The notes below the pieces were generated by a model. The model ran no database searches and had not been told where the DNA came from. It was given only the letters and a program-made list of their open reading frames with translations. From Pseudomonadales bacterium (lineage in GTDB: Bacteria > Pseudomonadota > Gammaproteobacteria > Pseudomonadales > Pseudohongiellaceae), in the NCBI GenBank assembly GCA_023268635.1, contig JALQUB010000005.1, forward strand, positions 62,001 to 126,000: a DNA stretch of 64,000 nt. The letters are read 5' to 3'. Below, piece by piece: positions 53,867 to 62,042 of the stretch. The position numbers and the translations under genes were made by a program. Each line of letters starts with the position of its first letter. Position 1 is the stretch's first letter.

Positions 53867-54189
53867 CTGTATTACTTATCTGACGTTTGTTCTGCACACA
53901 AGCGATGCGCCATTGAGTAAAGCGCAGCTTATTTCAGTAGTGTTCAGCGTTCGGGATAAAAATGTCCCCTAACGCGTTGATATTGGTGCTGTTGCCCGAG
54001 GCGCGCGACTATAGCATAAGTGGTGCTGTGGCGTGCTTATTTATTCGTCCAAAGGTGCAGCGTAACTTGACCTGAGCAGCCTGTCGAGTCGGTGCGTATA
54101 GCGCGTTCAAATCAATTAATCATGGAAGCGGGGCGTAAATCTTGGTAGTTTTGCGGCAGTTAGGTATTTGTAAAAACAAGGTGAAAACT
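53867..54189. other. Intergenic region between divergent rimB and PQQ dehydrogenase
   Basis: 323 bases without a gene, holding the promoters of both divergent units. I see no convincing paired -35/-10 set, only a TATAGC at 54010-54015. A short palindrome (GGGA...TCCC, about 53954-53969) lies near 53960. Confidence 0.5.
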
Positions 54190-56229
54190 ATGCGATCTTT
54201 AAGTACGTATTCAATAACGCGCGGACTGTTTCGTGGTCTGGTCGCAGGGGTGGTGTCGCTCAGCGTCGCCGCCGCCGCGAACGCACAAAACCCAGAAGAG
54301 TGGTTCACACTCGGTGGTGATTTCGCGCATACGCGTTACACGCCAGCGGATGAGATTACGGCCGAAAATTTCACCGACTTAGAAGTCGCGTGGGAATGGG
54401 ATGGAGCGAGCTTCCGTGCAATGAGTGGGCGATCTACGCCTTCACTCATCGACGGCAAGCTCTTTACTGTTGCGGGTAATAAGCGCCACGTCATCGCTAT
54501 CGATCCGAAGACCGGTGAAACGCTCTGGTCTTATCGTGAACCCGATACACCCCGTGCCGAATATTCCATGCGTGCTGACTACGGTAAGGGTGTTGGCTAT
54601 GCCCGCATCGATGGTCGTGGTGTTGTCTATATAGTCTCTCCTGGATTCTTCCTGACCGCACTCGATGCGAACACGGGAGTTCCGCTGGAAGGCTTCGGCA
54701 AGAAAGTGCCAATCGAAGGTTTCCCAGAAACAGGTGTCGTCGATCTGCTCGCCGACCTAGGGCATGAGTACGACCCTTATGAGGGCCTGCCGCTAGAAAC
54801 TGGCTATATTACTTCTTCGTCACCACCGATTGTCGTGAACGACACAGTTGTAGTGGGCAACTCCGCCGAGCAGGGTTACCACCAGTCACGTATCGAAAAC
54901 GTGCCGGGCGACATCCTCGGATATGACGCGCGCACTGGTGCATTCAAGTGGAAGTTTAATGTCATCCCTAAGCCGGGTGAGTTTGGTCACGAGACTTGGG
55001 AAAATGATGCATGGGAATGGACTGGCGATGTGTCTTCTTGGGCGCCCCTGTCAGCCGACCCCGCTAATGACCTCGTTTATATTCCAACGAATAGCGCGAC
55101 TATCGATTATTACGGCGGTTTCCGCCCGGGCGACAATCTCTATGGCGCCGCGTTGATCGCTCTCGATGCGAGCACGGGTGAGCGTAAATGGCACTTCCAG
55201 ATGGTGAAGCATGAAATCTGGAACTTCGATAACCCCACAGCACCGGTGCTACTCGATCTCGACATGCCGGGTCGTGGCAAGGTGCCTGCAATCGCGCAAG
55301 TCACCAAGCAAGCTTGGGTCTATGCGTTTAATCGCATCACGGGTGAGCCGCTTTGGCCAATCGTAGACAAGCCTGTGCCTCCTTCAATTGTGCCGGGTGA
55401 GGTGTTGTCACCTACACAACCGCACGTGACCAAACCGGCACCTTTCGATATGCAAGGTATTACTGAGGACGATTTGGCCGATTTTACGCCGGAGATTCGT
55501 CGTCAGGCGATCGAAGCGATGAAGGATTACCAAATGGGTCCTCTGTTTAATCCGCCGATCCATGCGGGTAATTCCACTGGGAAATATGCTGCAATGAACT
55601 GCCCAGGGGGCTCTGGTGGCGCTAACATCAACGCACCAGCAGTCGCCGACCCAGAGACGGGTAAGCTCTATATCTCATCGCACAAGGCGTGTTTCGCACT
55701 CCGCCTCATTACCGGCGAAGAAGCGGATTTGTTGTATCCCAACACGACAGGATCAACTTTGTCCGAATGGGCCAACGCAGGGCCGGGTGCCACAGCGAGA
55801 CCTCCTCGTCACCCAGCAGGCATTCCAATCTGGAAGCCACCGTATAGCCGAATCACGGCGATTGACATGAACACGGGCGATCATTCTTGGATGATCCCAA
55901 CGGGTGAAACGCCTAACCGCATTAAGAACAATCCTGCCCTTAAAGGTGTGGATATCGGCAATACTGGCACCGGAGCATTGGTCCCGATGGTTGTGACTAA
56001 GAATATGCTGGTCTATTCCGATCAGGCCAGTGATGGCACGCCGATGCTTTATTCGATCGATAAAGATACAGGTGAGATTATGGCGCAGATAGAAGCGCCG
56101 GCTCGCAGCGGTTACGGCATGAGCTCATGGGTGCACGATGGTCATCAATATATCATCCTGCAAACAGGCTCAAAGCTCACTGCCATGGCGTTGCCAGAGG
56201 CACGTGTTGAGAGTGGCGGCGGTCACTAG
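54190..56229 (+). CDS. Exported PQQ-dependent dehydrogenase (quinoprotein)
   Basis: 679 residues. A signal peptide of about 32 residues ends Ala-Asn-Ala, placing the enzyme in the periplasm. The body is a quinoprotein beta propeller with several tryptophan-docking repeats (TGETLWSYR, TGAFKWKFN, TGERKWHFQ, TGEPLWP). It is a type I alcohol/glucose-type dehydrogenase without a fused cytochrome c (no CxxCH) and without the adjacent Cys-Cys pair of methanol dehydrogenases. Electrons would pass to a separate cytochrome or to quinone. Substrate unknown. The start at ATG 54190 has AAGGTG upstream; an upstream in-frame start at 54142 would spoil the signal peptide. No pqq genes are in the window. Confidence 0.88.
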   Translation: MRSLSTYSITRGLFRGLVAGVVSLSVAAAANAQNPEEWFTLGGDFAHTRYTPADEITAENFTDLEVAWEWDGASFRAMSGRSTPSLIDGKLFTVAGNKRHVIAIDPKTGETLWSYREPDTPRAEYSMRADYGKGVGYARIDGRGVVYIVSPGFFLTALDANTGVPLEGFGKKVPIEGFPETGVVDLLADLGHEYDPYEGLPLETGYITSSSPPIVVNDTVVVGNSAEQGYHQSRIENVPGDILGYDARTGAFKWKFNVIPKPGEFGHETWENDAWEWTGDVSSWAPLSADPANDLVYIPTNSATIDYYGGFRPGDNLYGAALIALDASTGERKWHFQMVKHEIWNFDNPTAPVLLDLDMPGRGKVPAIAQVTKQAWVYAFNRITGEPLWPIVDKPVPPSIVPGEVLSPTQPHVTKPAPFDMQGITEDDLADFTPEIRRQAIEAMKDYQMGPLFNPPIHAGNSTGKYAAMNCPGGSGGANINAPAVADPETGKLYISSHKACFALRLITGEEADLLYPNTTGSTLSEWANAGPGATARPPRHPAGIPIWKPPYSRITAIDMNTGDHSWMIPTGETPNRIKNNPALKGVDIGNTGTGALVPMVVTKNMLVYSDQASDGTPMLYSIDKDTGEIMAQIEAPARSGYGMSSWVHDGHQYIILQTGSKLTAMALPEARVESGGGH

Positions 56230-57961: not shown

Positions 57962-58272
57962 TTTAGGGCCCGTGCTTAGGTTTCTAAGCGTCGTCATTGT
58001 ACGGATTTATCGGTTTTTTTCCAGATGATAGTGATTTCTTTTGTGATTTTTTTGCACTGGAATAGGGCCAAAATCTGGCCCAATTGACGGGAGTATACGC
58101 CGATCTGAAGCTTATGGGCGGATTGTTTTAGGCTCTATGCCACCTGCAGGGTTATTGGCATTAATTGCGATAACCTGGACGTGCTCATCTGCTTGGATTT
58201 GGGGAGGTAAAGCGGTAAAGTGTCGGCTTATTTTACTGTATTAAGCTGTACAAAATTGGTCGGGAAAGCATT
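57962..58272. other. Divergent intergenic region with a hairpin, pckA to amine oxidase
   Basis: 311 bases carrying the control regions of pckA and the amine oxidase operon. It is T-rich near pckA. GGGCCA (58065-58070) and TGGCCC (58076-58081) form a 6-bp hairpin with a 5-base loop. TTGACG follows at 58084 without a matching -10. No operator is recognised. Confidence 0.5.
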
Positions 58273-59862
58273 ATGAAGAAGATTGTGTCGCGGCGAGAGT
58301 TATTGGGCCTCATTGCTAAAACGGGCGCCAGCGGCGCAGTTTTAGGGGCTGGAAACGCGCTCGGTATTGTGCCTAATACCTATGTCGATATTCCTCAGAT
58401 TCCACAGGCGAATCCTTCCGATCGACCTAGCGTCGTCATTCTCGGCGCCGGCATTTCCGGGTTAACCGCGGCTTATGAAATGAAAAAAGCCGGCTATCAC
58501 GTAGTTGTGCTCGAGGCGGCTGGACGCGCAGGGGGACGTAGCCTCACCGTCCGCCATGGCGATTTGATTGACGAAGTCGGCAATCCTCAAATCTGTGAGT
58601 TCGATGACGAGCCCCACATGTATTTCAACTGTGGCCCCGCTCGTATCCCGAGTTCCCATCGCAATGTGCTGCATTACTGCAAAGAATTGGGCGTCGAACT
58701 CGAGGTATTCATCAACGAGAACAAAGAGACTTATATTCAAGACGACGCGATGCTCGATGGTAAACCTATTAAGAATCGCGAGTTCACGACCAACGCCCGC
58801 GGCTTCATGGCTGAGATCATGGCTAAAAACTTCACCAACGCCGAATTAGACGAACCATTCGATGAATGGGAGACAGAAGCGTTGATGCGTGTGATACGCA
58901 ATATGGGGGATCTCTCCGAAGATATGATTTACAAAGGAAGTACACGCGGTGGCTATTCCCACGGTGGCTTCCTAGAACATGGTCATGCCTTAGAGACCAT
59001 CGCACTGCGCGATCTCCTGAAGACTGGCCTATTCAGCATGGCACTCGGCCAAAATGAAGGCGAGACAGGGCCGATTCTGTTCCAGCCCGTCGGCGGCATG
59101 GATCAGATCGTCAAGGGCTTCCTGCGCCAACTCCCTGAAGAAGTTTTCTACAATGTCATGGTGACATCGGTCATGCTGCAAGACGGTGGCGTGGAAGTTG
59201 TCTACGAGCACAAGGGCATGAAGTACAAGATCGAGGCTGATTATTGCTTCAACAGCATCCCTTCACACCTCATGACGGGTATCGAAAACAATTTCCCCGA
59301 TGACTATCGAGAGGCGATGCACTATATACGTCGCGGCGAAGCCTATAAGTCCGCCTTCCAGGCGAAAGAGCGCTTCTGGGAAAAAGATGACATCTTCGGT
59401 GGCATCTCGTGGACGAATCAGCCTATCGAGCAGATCTGGTATCCCCCACATGGTATGTACAAAGAGAAAGGTGTCATCCTCTCCGCCTATAACTACGGCG
59501 GCGGCATGCACTTCACTCAGCTAACTCAGGAAGAGCGCATTGAAACTGCACTCCGACAGGGCGAGAAGGTTCACCCCAATTACCGCAATCTCGTAGAGAA
59601 GGGCATCACCATCGCTTGGCACCGAATGAATCACATGCTCGGTTGTTCAGCGCGATGGCAGAAGAGTCGCAGCGGATTCACCCAAGAAGAGGAGCGTCTC
59701 TTCCAGACTCTGCGTAAGCCAGCGGGCAATCACTACACCATCGGTGACCAAATCACTAAGCACACAGCTTGGCAGGAAAGCGCGATTCTCTCTGCCCACT
59801 GGGCGATCAACGATATGCTAAGCCGCAAAGCGGGTGGCAGCATGCCGGGGCAGCGCGTCTAA
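58273..59862 (+). CDS. Tat-exported flavin amine / L-amino-acid oxidase family enzyme
   Basis: 529 residues. The N-terminus has a twin-arginine signal (SRRELLG at 6-12, then a weakly hydrophobic Ala/Gly helix), so it is exported folded with FAD in place. The FAD-binding Rossmann motif GAGISG is at 58-63, with Glu81 and EAAGRAGGR at 81-89. The CGPARIP stretch near residue 123 resembles the GxMRxP motif of L-amino-acid oxidases; the C-terminal AILSAHWAI stretch caps the flavin. It would oxidise an amine or amino acid to an imine. The next two genes encode a diheme cytochrome c and an anchored RidA, suggesting a dehydrogenase rather than an oxygen-using oxidase. The ATG has GGGA upstream. Confidence 0.87.
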   Translation: MKKIVSRRELLGLIAKTGASGAVLGAGNALGIVPNTYVDIPQIPQANPSDRPSVVILGAGISGLTAAYEMKKAGYHVVVLEAAGRAGGRSLTVRHGDLIDEVGNPQICEFDDEPHMYFNCGPARIPSSHRNVLHYCKELGVELEVFINENKETYIQDDAMLDGKPIKNREFTTNARGFMAEIMAKNFTNAELDEPFDEWETEALMRVIRNMGDLSEDMIYKGSTRGGYSHGGFLEHGHALETIALRDLLKTGLFSMALGQNEGETGPILFQPVGGMDQIVKGFLRQLPEEVFYNVMVTSVMLQDGGVEVVYEHKGMKYKIEADYCFNSIPSHLMTGIENNFPDDYREAMHYIRRGEAYKSAFQAKERFWEKDDIFGGISWTNQPIEQIWYPPHGMYKEKGVILSAYNYGGGMHFTQLTQEERIETALRQGEKVHPNYRNLVEKGITIAWHRMNHMLGCSARWQKSRSGFTQEEERLFQTLRKPAGNHYTIGDQITKHTAWQESAILSAHWAINDMLSRKAGGSMPGQRV

Positions 59863-59894
59863 TTTTTCCGATTCGATTTAGGGTTGTATTTATA

Positions 59895-60536
59895 ATGAAA
59901 AAGTTCGCTAAGAGCCGATTTAACTTTCTTTCTCTCGCATTGCTCGCACTTAGCGCGAGTGCCAATGCTCAGCAATATGATCTGCTAGATCTCTCAGCCC
60001 AGCCTTTAAATAACGAAGTGTGCGCAACCTGTCACGGTGGCGCCGGAGTGGGCAATGCGTCTGTGGGCGGACCAAGCCTCGCGGGTCTCGAACCTTGGTA
60101 TTTGCGTAAGCAACTCGAGAACTTTCGCGCGGGTATTCGCGGCACTCAAAAAGAATATATTCCTGGCAACGAGATGCAGGCCTCGGTCGCGAGATTGAGC
60201 GACGAGGAAATTTCAGAGTTGGTTGACCATATTTCTAATTGGGAAGCGGTCGCTCCGAAACCTAGGATTGAGGGTGATGCATCGAAGGGGCAGGCGCTAT
60301 ACGCCGCGTGCGCTGCATGTCATGGTGCGTCGGGCGACGGGAACGAGGCCTTGGGTGCACCCGGACTCGCGGGTCGCAATGACTGGTATATGTTCCGTCA
60401 GCTTAAGCTGTTCCAATCAGGCTTCCGAGGAAAGCATCCCGAAGATACTGCTGGACAGTTGATGCGTCCTGCGGCACAGGCGCTAGAAAACGACGAAGCG
60501 ATTAACGACGTGCTTGCCTATATCAATACGTTGTAG
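59895..60536 (+). CDS. Exported diheme cytochrome c
   Basis: 213 residues. A Sec signal peptide (cleavage after Ala-Asn-Ala, residue 25) is followed by two similar cytochrome c domains. Heme sites are Cys43-Ala-Thr-Cys-His47 and Cys139-Ala-Ala-Cys-His143; the likely axial methionines are Met94 and Met190. The pattern with SLAG/GLAGRNDWYMFRQL is that of the c553/c4-type diheme group. It begins 32 bases after the oxidase and is the obvious electron acceptor for it, possibly also for the PQQ dehydrogenase nearby. The ATG 59895 starts a proper signal peptide. Confidence 0.93.
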   Translation: MKKFAKSRFNFLSLALLALSASANAQQYDLLDLSAQPLNNEVCATCHGGAGVGNASVGGPSLAGLEPWYLRKQLENFRAGIRGTQKEYIPGNEMQASVARLSDEEISELVDHISNWEAVAPKPRIEGDASKGQALYAACAACHGASGDGNEALGAPGLAGRNDWYMFRQLKLFQSGFRGKHPEDTAGQLMRPAAQALENDEAINDVLAYINTL

Positions 60537-60549
60537 AGGATTGGCTAAA

Positions 60550-61263
60550 ATGTCTGATCACGACATAAAAGACGAGGTTGTCGATTCACCTTCGAATGGA
60601 CAGACAGAAGACACTGCCGAGCATGCCCACCAAGTAGTAGTTAAGAACACCGGCATGAGTCCGCTCGGGAAAGCCGTGGCGGGTGCAGCGTCCCTACTAG
60701 CCCTAGTCATTTTGATCCAATTGCTGTTAGGGGGTGAGACAGTTGTCGAGGAAGCTTCACACGAGACCGCTTCATCATCTATGGCGACTCCCGTACAAAC
60801 TGCGTCTAATGCCAGCGAAGTGGCAATAATCGGCACTGATGCTGATGACGACATGGTTAATGTCGGCGGTATTGAGCGACGAGGCGCAGGACGCTATTTC
60901 TTTACCAGCATCAAAGTGCCTGCGGATGCAAAATCACTCTATCTCAGCGGCTCTGGTGCTACTCCCCTAGAGGATGGAAGCTGGGGTGATATGGAGCAGC
61001 AGGTCACCGAAATATTCGCGACATTCAAAGAGACCCTGGAGGCACAGGGTTGGTCGATGGGAGACATTATCCAGGTGAGAGCTTTCGCGATTTCTGACGA
61101 ATATGGCTCTCTCGATTTCGCCGGCTTCAATCGAGGCTACAGTAAATTTTTCGGCACCGAAGAAAATCCCCTCAAACCAGTGCGCACCTTCGTCGAGGTT
61201 AAAGACCTTGTCGTGCCTGGTTGGTTAGTCGAGCTCGAAATCAGGGCGGCTCGCGTTAACTAG
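60550..61263 (+). CDS. Membrane-anchored RidA family protein
   Basis: 237 residues. A cytoplasmic acidic N-terminus, one membrane helix (about 41-62), a Ser/Thr/Ala-rich linker (about 63-100) and a C-terminal RidA/YjgF domain (about 105-237). The key Arg of imine deaminases is Arg212 (KPVRTFVEV) and the acidic partner is in VELE (Glu228 or Glu230). RidA proteins hydrolyse imines released by PLP enzymes and L-amino-acid oxidases, normally in the cytoplasm. Here the domain would face the periplasm if the helix is inserted N-in. It starts 13 bases after the cytochrome gene, with AGAGGA as ribosome site. Confidence 0.86.
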   Translation: MSDHDIKDEVVDSPSNGQTEDTAEHAHQVVVKNTGMSPLGKAVAGAASLLALVILIQLLLGGETVVEEASHETASSSMATPVQTASNASEVAIIGTDADDDMVNVGGIERRGAGRYFFTSIKVPADAKSLYLSGSGATPLEDGSWGDMEQQVTEIFATFKETLEAQGWSMGDIIQVRAFAISDEYGSLDFAGFNRGYSKFFGTEENPLKPVRTFVEVKDLVVPGWLVELEIRAARVN

Positions 61264-61951
61264 CCGCCGCGTCGGCAATCGCTGTGCGTATTCGAGACGA
61301 TGAAGGTCGTGCGAGTTGTCGGCCATTGATGAACAGGGTGGGTGTGCCGCGCACACCTGCTGCATTTCCTCCGCGCTGATCGGCGCGAATTTTCTCCACG
61401 GTGCTTTCATCCTGCATGTCGGCGTGCAAACGCTCTAAGTCTATGTCGAGTTCCAGTGCATAACTGTCGAACTCCGCTTCGACTGAGCTCAAGCCCGACC
61501 ACAGTGCCTGAGTCTGGAATAGTACGTCGTGCATTTCCCAAAAACGATTCTGGCGGGCTGCAGCTTCAGCATAAAGTGAAGCGGTCCACGAATTAGGGTG
61601 CGCAGTTGTAATGGGGAAGTGTCGAAAGATGAGGTGTGCCTTGTCGCTGATTTCTGGCCAGAGGCGCATCATAGTTTCATGCTCAGTCGCGCAGGCTGGG
61701 CATTGGAAATCGGCGTAAACGACGACGGTCACCGGCGTATCGCGGTCGCCACGGAGGTGATCATTGTCAGCAATTTCTATGGGTGAGTAGGTTGGCGCCT
61801 GATTCAGTAATGTATAAATCGTGATCAGTGCGATAACAGGCAGCACGAAGTACACGCCGAACTTAGTGAGTAATCTGCGAGTCCCTTGGTTCTTCTCCGC
61901 CGCTTTCTGTTTCGCTTCCCGTCGTTTTCTCTGTTCTTCTCGTTTATTCAT
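61256..61951 (-). CDS. Membrane-anchored DsbA-family thiol oxidoreductase
   Basis: 231 residues. A very basic N-terminus (NKREEQRKRREAKQK) precedes a membrane helix (about 33-50), leaving a periplasmic thioredoxin-like domain with Cys84-Pro-Ala-Cys87 and a cis-proline in RGTPTLF. It resembles DsbA/DsbG-like proteins of the thioredoxin_4 group. It could oxidise or isomerise disulfides in exported proteins. The start at 61951 is preferred; an upstream in-frame ATG at 62026 adds 25 residues. Its 3' end overlaps the RidA gene by eight bases. Confidence 0.85.
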   Translation of the reverse strand: MNKREEQRKRREAKQKAAEKNQGTRRLLTKFGVYFVLPVIALITIYTLLNQAPTYSPIEIADNDHLRGDRDTPVTVVVYADFQCPACATEHETMMRLWPEISDKAHLIFRHFPITTAHPNSWTASLYAEAAARQNRFWEMHDVLFQTQALWSGLSSVEAEFDSYALELDIDLERLHADMQDESTVEKIRADQRGGNAAGVRGTPTLFINGRQLARPSSSRIRTAIADAAAS

Positions 61952-62042
61952 GGCAGCCGGCTGCTCTCCATTCTGCTCGTTGCAGTGTGCGATATTGAAA
62001 GCGTTACTATAGCCGAGCAAGCGCATGAGTCAATGTAGAGGT

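Follow-up and report, generated by a model that had tools for sequence, protein, structure and literature searches.

A putative operon for L-amino-acid deamination outside the cytoplasm, with a membrane-anchored Rid protein, in a marine member of the Pseudohongiellaceae

What could be the role of a Rid protein that carries a membrane anchor and is encoded directly behind an apparently exported flavoenzyme and an apparently exported cytochrome c? Rid proteins are usually explained by the protection of pyridoxal phosphate (PLP) enzymes in the cytoplasm, and the question is raised by a locus of a marine bacterium of the Pseudohongiellaceae, located in a 64,000-nucleotide stretch of contig JALQUB010000005.1 (positions 62,001 to 126,000; assembly GCA_023268635.1), which as a whole is referred to as the window. 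Three genes follow each other on the plus strand, separated by gaps of 32 and 13 bases. The first (58273-59862) encodes a 529-residue flavin adenine dinucleotide (FAD) amine oxidoreductase of the L-amino acid oxidase (LAAO) type with a twin-arginine translocation (Tat) signal, the next (59895-60536) a 213-residue, c4-like diheme cytochrome c with a Sec signal and two CxxCH motifs, and the last (60550-61263) a 237-residue Rid protein that is predicted to be membrane-anchored. Pfam assigns them to Amino_oxidase (7.3e-34), Cytochrom_C (1.4e-22, two stretches) and Ribonuc_L-PSP (3.7e-14), the queries for the latter two carrying one extra codon at the front. An earlier note on this DNA had described the same layout at 58273-61263, and its coordinates, strands and protein types all hold, as do the export signals that it assigned to the three proteins, i.e. 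a twin arginine, a Sec-type start and a membrane helix.

Based on the features of the three proteins, their linkage across genomes and comparisons to characterized relatives, we propose, with a probability of roughly 0.63, that the locus is an extracytoplasmic L-amino-acid deamination operon operating as follows. The Tat-exported flavoenzyme would abstract a hydride from a periplasmic L-amino acid, generating an imino acid, with the substrate class suggested by a conserved arginine (in 146 of 146 open reading frames (ORFs), see below). The reduced flavin would then be reoxidised by the diheme c4-like cytochrome, which would receive two electrons and hand them on to a terminal oxidase. The Rid domain, held by its helix at the outer face of the inner membrane, would break down the imino acid by hydrolysis, and the resulting keto acid and ammonium could then be imported. 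Electron transfer to the cytochrome is proposed because of the linkage and of published enzymes with a Tat signal and an adjacent cytochrome (PMC12224317), and imine hydrolysis because the active site is kept in complete ORFs and Rid3 proteins act on imines made by amino-acid oxidases (PMC5619798). The host genome (2.3 Mb, 95 contigs) encodes TatC, CcmE and two COX1-family genes.

The linkage was followed in three sets of loci. Across 398 genomes drawn from the phylum (flavoenzyme E up to 1e-40; Rid clade E up to 1e-20, with profile A2 of 22 rows, 5 of them from phylum-sample loci), the flavoenzyme is present in 27 and the Rid clade in 25, with both in 24 genomes from 14 families; the single genome with Rid and no flavoenzyme (G364) has a partial match. 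In 21 of the 24, the Rid gene follows the flavoenzyme gene in the same orientation, at a distance of no more than 1.3 kb. A hypergeometric test of this co-occurrence overstates its significance, as genomes of one family are not independent. Among 80 named loci, the best of 156 relatives found, a cytochrome is present within 700 bases downstream in 66 (doubtful in one, L196) and Rid within 6 kb downstream in 44, every one of which also has the cytochrome. The 30 phylum loci outside the window's genome contain 21 cytochromes (18 monoheme, 3 diheme) and 22 Rids, with both in 15; neither of these two sets of counts includes the genus set. The proposal of the earlier note that the genes form one module with conserved linkage is thus supported, and a lack of such linkage in relatives, which that note had named as a finding that would overturn its reading, is not what is seen. 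A chance neighbourhood of the three was rejected because the arrangement recurs phylum-wide. The nearest of the named loci are from assemblies of Gammaproteobacteria or Pseudomonadales, one called OM182, with Pseudohongiella assemblies further down. One relative with a flavoenzyme of the clade at 59% identity (L201, CAMCRC010000005.1) is titled Klebsiella pneumoniae, a title that is probably wrong.

Within the genus, a close flavoenzyme (E < 1e-190) is found in 29 of the 37 genomes examined, the window's own included. The 36 genus loci hold a cytochrome in 35, the exception being at a contig end, Rid in 25 (one broken) and a symporter in 21, so that the common layout is flavoenzyme, cytochrome, symporter and a Rid with cleavable signal. 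The symporter belongs to the sodium:dicarboxylate (SDF) family and scores best to GltP, far under that model's cut-off. The window's genome deviates from this layout, as do two relatives (G024, G027): here the symporter is encoded elsewhere together with a second, Sec-type Rid, and the flavoenzyme keeps the helix-anchored Rid. In the window's genome this second place (L002:1486-3256, G000:C18) consists of the sodium:dicarboxylate-family symporter followed by the second exported Rid of the linked clade.

The flavoenzyme starts with MKKIVSRRELLGLIAK, with the twin arginine at residues 7-8, and a twin-arginine pattern is present in 78 of the 80 named loci by a lenient rule. Its best solved relative is the LAAO of Rhodococcus opacus (PDB 2jae, E 2.5e-73 in a PDB search). 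The motif GPARIP is kept, with Arg124 aligning to the Arg of ATRIP in the R. opacus enzyme; we take this arginine of the GxxRxP motif to be the binder of the substrate carboxylate. The pattern [GA]xxR[ILVM]P is present in all 146 flavoenzyme ORFs, a set that, like the 99 Rid ORFs discussed below, includes some genes twice, since genus and named loci partly overlap. Lys359 and Trp500 were also marked, the former aligning with a lysine of R. opacus LAAO. The AlphaFold model of the flavoenzyme is too poor for use, with a mean predicted local distance difference test (pLDDT) score of 45.7.

The cytochrome has a hydrophobic, Sec-type N-terminus ending in ASANA, and its nearest solved relatives are cytochromes c4 (6q2u and 1etp). 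In this it is reminiscent of the clade 1 partners described in PMC12224317; the flavoenzyme itself is nearest to LAAO in the PDB search. In one subclade the flavoenzyme has neither a cytochrome nor a Rid gene next to it, but 12 of its loci (L195, L197, L200-L203, L205, L208, L210, L214, L215 and L233) encode a related cytochrome on the other strand, some 5 kb upstream.

The Rid protein consists of an N-terminal tail, a helix at residues 42-60 (codons 60673-60729, AVAGAASLLALVILIQLLL), a linker and the Rid domain from about residue 108. The helix is assigned by hydropathy, flanking residues and prediction, and is the sole hydrophobic segment (Kyte-Doolittle 2.54 over 19 residues; the best value beyond residue 75 is 0.96). 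AlphaFold places a helix at 38-60, followed by a low-confidence linker and a Rid domain block with pLDDT 82-94 between residues 121 and 200, within a whole-chain mean of only 68. Top Foldseek matches of the model are the Rid3 proteins PSPTO_3006 and PFL_1385 (PDB 9bka and 9bkc, E 1e-11), which are the closest solved chains by sequence too. The active-site residues Arg212, Glu228 and Glu230 are kept; among the 99 Rid ORFs the catalytic arginine is present in 96 and both glutamates likewise in 96. Where they are lacking, the ORF is incomplete and shows a gap or an unread residue; arginine and glutamate are kept in every complete ORF. The PFL_1385 chain in 9bkc starts signal-like, ending in SSSWA-AG.

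On which side of the membrane would this domain reside? The charges nearest to the helix are a lysine on the N side (VVKNTGMSPLGK) and a glutamate on the C side (GGETVVEE), which favours a topology with the N-terminus inside and the Rid domain outside the cytoplasm. The relatives point the same way. Export was called with a home-made hydropathy and motif rule rather than SignalP, counting cleavable, lipoprotein and helix starts as export-type; the rule missed one signal-like start (L072) and called a doubtful one exported (L272). By this rule 66 of the 99 Rid ORFs are of the cleavable type, 13 have a helix, 3 a helix or cleavable start, 11 are lipoproteins and 6 have none, the last comprising one apparent signal missed by the rule, three broken or fragmentary ORFs and two cytoplasmic-looking proteins. 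All 44 linked Rids of the named loci and 20 of the 22 from the phylum sample have an export-type N-terminus, as compared to 0 of 31 canonical RidA proteins from relatives. A Rid domain facing the cytoplasm, which the earlier note had listed as a finding that would overturn its reading, was thus rejected as unlikely, because linked relatives have a cleavable-type signal or a lipobox where the window Rid has its helix.

In the Rid tree, 63 of the 66 linked Rids fall together with the window Rid and three symporter-paired ones in one clade (67 rows versus 51 others; Shimodaira-Hasegawa-like approximate likelihood ratio test 100), in a quick tree of few columns with a long-branch warning, from which three linked Rids are absent as short rows or for unread residues. 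The flavoenzyme tree, also a quick tree with a long-branch warning, limits the helix-anchored Rid to one clade of 13 rows that includes the window (10 helix, 1 helix or cleavable, 1 cleavable and 1 cut by a contig end), and groups seven lipoprotein loci of the diheme lineage in another. It also contains a 15-locus clade with cytochrome and without Rid, and an 8-row clade without adjacent cytochrome, in which 7 keep Rid, 5 of these exported. Because of these two clades, the choice of electron acceptor and the handling of the imine appear separable, as the tree suggests.

Exported Rids occur beyond the linked clade as well, and in five neighbourhoods of such Rids no flavoenzyme was seen among the long ORFs, as judged by eye. 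A second Rid family of the genus is a lipoprotein with a start like MFRVIxxAALSTxLLACQPE (L278, L279, L281, L284, L286, L287 and L290), and in L297:2915-4656 a twin-arginine ORF, class V aminotransferase-like by eye, ends where an exported Rid ORF starts, perhaps another exported imine-making pair.

Several observations weigh against the proposed function. The flavoenzyme occurs in few genomes (27 of 398), with a patchy distribution, and no close relative was found when 21 genomes of the order's other families were searched (best match about 1e-7). Linkage is incomplete, with 14 of the 80 named loci lacking both cytochrome and Rid (L171 among them ends at a contig end) and 22 having the cytochrome without Rid, some of them incomplete; among the 30 phylum loci, 9 have no cytochrome within 700 bases downstream and 8 no downstream Rid, counting as a miss one flavoenzyme of G209 that is preceded by both. 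The N-terminal tail of the window Rid has a net charge of -5 as a whole, the linked Rids L159 and L161 lack an export signal, and 13 of 20 other Rids, next by score, are also export-type, i.e. export is not peculiar to the linked clade. Furthermore, the flavoenzyme keeps a lysine that oxidases also have, no LAAO-like enzyme is evident in the kinetic set as presented in PMC12224317, and the clade 1 pairs described there, with c4-type cytochromes, react only 1.8- to 4.6-fold faster with the cytochrome than with O2 (three pairs). Clade 1 enzymes, whose diheme c4-type partners are membrane-bound, are slow with both acceptors; assays in solution, as the authors suggest, do not work for cytochromes that are bound to a membrane (PMC12224317).

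This modest reactivity weakens the proposed transfer of electrons to the cytochrome and strengthens the least improbable alternative, which we consider unlikely, namely that the flavoenzyme is a periplasmic, O2-using LAAO and that the role of the cytochrome lies elsewhere, for instance in removing peroxide or in serving a different donor. The nearest solved relatives of the flavoenzyme are indeed oxidases, and Lys359, in our own reading of the alignment with R. opacus LAAO, is the equivalent of the NicA2 lysine, a residue that is nearly universal and that speeds the reaction with O2 in true oxidases (PMC12224317). The clade in which seven of eight flavoenzymes keep Rid in the absence of an adjacent cytochrome is likewise compatible with O2 as acceptor. 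Yet the cytochrome is missing from only one same-genus locus, at a contig end, and cytochrome c maturation is reportedly required in Gluconacetobacter diazotrophicus (PMC5053998). It is also improbable that Rid, rather than hydrolysing free imines, acts at the membrane as a subunit that activates the flavoenzyme or supports it structurally. PLP enzymes, the usual targets of Rid protection, are mostly cytoplasmic, which counts for such a subunit. So does the periplasmic LAAO-RidA complex of Chlamydomonas, whose non-catalytic M-beta subunit is, according to work cited in PMC5053998, a RidA protein. However, a purely structural part would have no need of the catalytic arginine and glutamate found in every complete Rid ORF, and the 15-locus clade combines flavoenzyme and cytochrome without any Rid. 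Least probable, and in our view quite remote, is an amine as substrate. NicA2 and Pnao, the best known cytochrome-linked members of the superfamily, oxidise nicotine and pseudooxynicotine, but the LAAO arginine is invariant in the flavoenzyme ORFs, and putrescine oxidase and monoamine oxidase match at 5.8e-11 or weaker, mostly over the FAD region, far behind the LAAO match.

As to the setting of the proposed operon, a gap of 275 bases (57998-58272), the presumed promoter region, separates the flavoenzyme from a divergent phosphoenolpyruvate carboxykinase gene on the minus strand. A promoter and terminator scan of the locus gave nothing above shuffles, with no sigma-70-type match on the plus strand of 57998-58272. 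A gene for a pyrroloquinoline quinone (PQQ)-family quinoprotein dehydrogenase (54142-56229), another likely periplasmic dehydrogenase, lies near, and its membership in the operon was rejected because the opposite-strand phosphoenolpyruvate carboxykinase gene intervenes. On the other side, a DsbA/Thioredoxin_4-family gene (61256-62026, minus strand) is convergent with the Rid gene and overlaps it by 8 bases.

The flavoenzyme was also matched in 35 plasmid records, of which four were examined (Sulfitobacter indolifex, Comamonas odontotermitis, Dinoroseobacter shibae and Rhizobium tropici), all with the cytochrome. The S. indolifex plasmid encodes a Rid with a cleavable start (MIRKFIAPLAAATALTATATFAQ), and in that of C. 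odontotermitis (L295:5779-6312) an in-frame lipobox-type signal just upstream was missed by the annotated RidA start; no Rid was seen in the D. shibae and R. tropici records. On D. shibae pDSHI02 (L293), the flavoenzyme-cytochrome pair immediately follows cytochrome c oxidase genes, hinting at an electron route.

Beyond the window, it seems somewhat probable that, throughout Pseudomonadota, a distinct Rid clade has become the fixed partner of respiratory L-amino-acid dehydrogenases and has specialised to function outside the cytoplasm, with cleavable, lipid or transmembrane tethers depending on the lineage. If so, the role of Rid would go further than protecting PLP enzymes in the cytoplasm: Rid may drive the dehydrogenase forward, or determine the site at which ammonium and keto acid are released. 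An exported Rid clade tied to one flavoenzyme family makes such a different role testable. The proposed operon would, in addition, extend the cytochrome c-using flavin amine dehydrogenases to the LAAO branch, and suggests that proteins that are annotated as 'flavin monoamine oxidase' and have a neighbouring cytochrome c gene, as on the Sulfitobacter, Comamonas, Dinoroseobacter and Rhizobium plasmids, may channel amino acids into respiration instead of producing peroxide.

How much of this has been described before? The earlier note knew of no system with this layout, which does not hold. The lao-cccA-ridA cluster of G. diazotrophicus (GDI2456-2454), reported in 2016 and called an operon by its authors, has a Tat flavoenzyme of the LAAO type, a cytochrome c and a Rid side by side in the same order, and the same roles were proposed for it, with the cytochrome aiding the redox step of the LAAO and RidA hydrolysing the imine (PMC5053998). 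Tn5 insertions in lao abolished the formation of indole acetic acid (IAA) and reduced ridA and cccA transcripts, ccm mutants are cited as making 5% of wild-type IAA, and the cluster is said to be conserved in Caulobacter and Xanthomonas (PMC5053998). In G. diazotrophicus, the cluster feeds indole-pyruvate and IAA synthesis. The window Rid is predicted to be membrane-anchored; GDI2454 was compared by its description in the paper and not by sequence, and in a term search of the main text 'periplasm' and 'export' occur only around LAAO or the alga, not around the bacterial RidA (PMC5053998). That alga, Chlamydomonas, is a further precedent, with LAO1 and LAO2/RIDA drawn in the periplasm (PMC10805672). 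It differs from the window locus in that LAO1 yields hydrogen peroxide and that no cytochrome partner is found in the available text of that paper.

A second line of comparison is offered by flavin amine dehydrogenases that use cytochrome c, among them the NicA2/Pnao-CycN systems and several that pair with c4-type cytochromes (PMC12224317). For Tat flavoenzymes with an adjacent cytochrome, reoxidation was faster by the cytochrome than by O2 in 14 of the 14 tabulated pairs, as judged by the first-phase constant (PMC12224317). The window shares with them the Tat flavoenzyme and the adjacent gene of a Sec cytochrome, as recognised by motif and hydropathy, and with clade 1 the diheme c4-type. In contrast to the window flavoenzyme, which is LAAO-like and accompanied by an exported Rid, that set was found via similarity to NicA2, and Rid and L-amino acid oxidase are unmentioned in the paper as far as its text was available.

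For Rid itself, the Rid3 proteins PFL_1385 and PSPTO_3006, nearest to the window Rid by sequence and fold, reduced the amount of semicarbazone formed in vitro from the imines of an amino-acid oxidase (PMC5619798); by term search, 'signal' and 'periplasm' are absent from the available text of this 2017 paper. Clustering of Rid with FAD-dependent amine oxidases was noted in PMC4433059, a Rid6 protein occurs in the nicotine cluster of strain S33, a different setting (PMC7688666), and the Rid protein of PMC9537276 acts in the breakdown of oxidised chitin, with export not described in the text available. Export of the bacterial Rid was not found in print in searches of one open-access library, including the term searches within PMC5053998 and PMC5619798.

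In conclusion, the earlier observation is real and conserved, and the layout and most of the idea are already in print, with the function being one that we infer. New, as far as seen, are the clade of exported Rids with its three types of anchor, the close phylum-wide co-occurrence of this clade with the flavoenzyme, and the symporter in the version of the genus.

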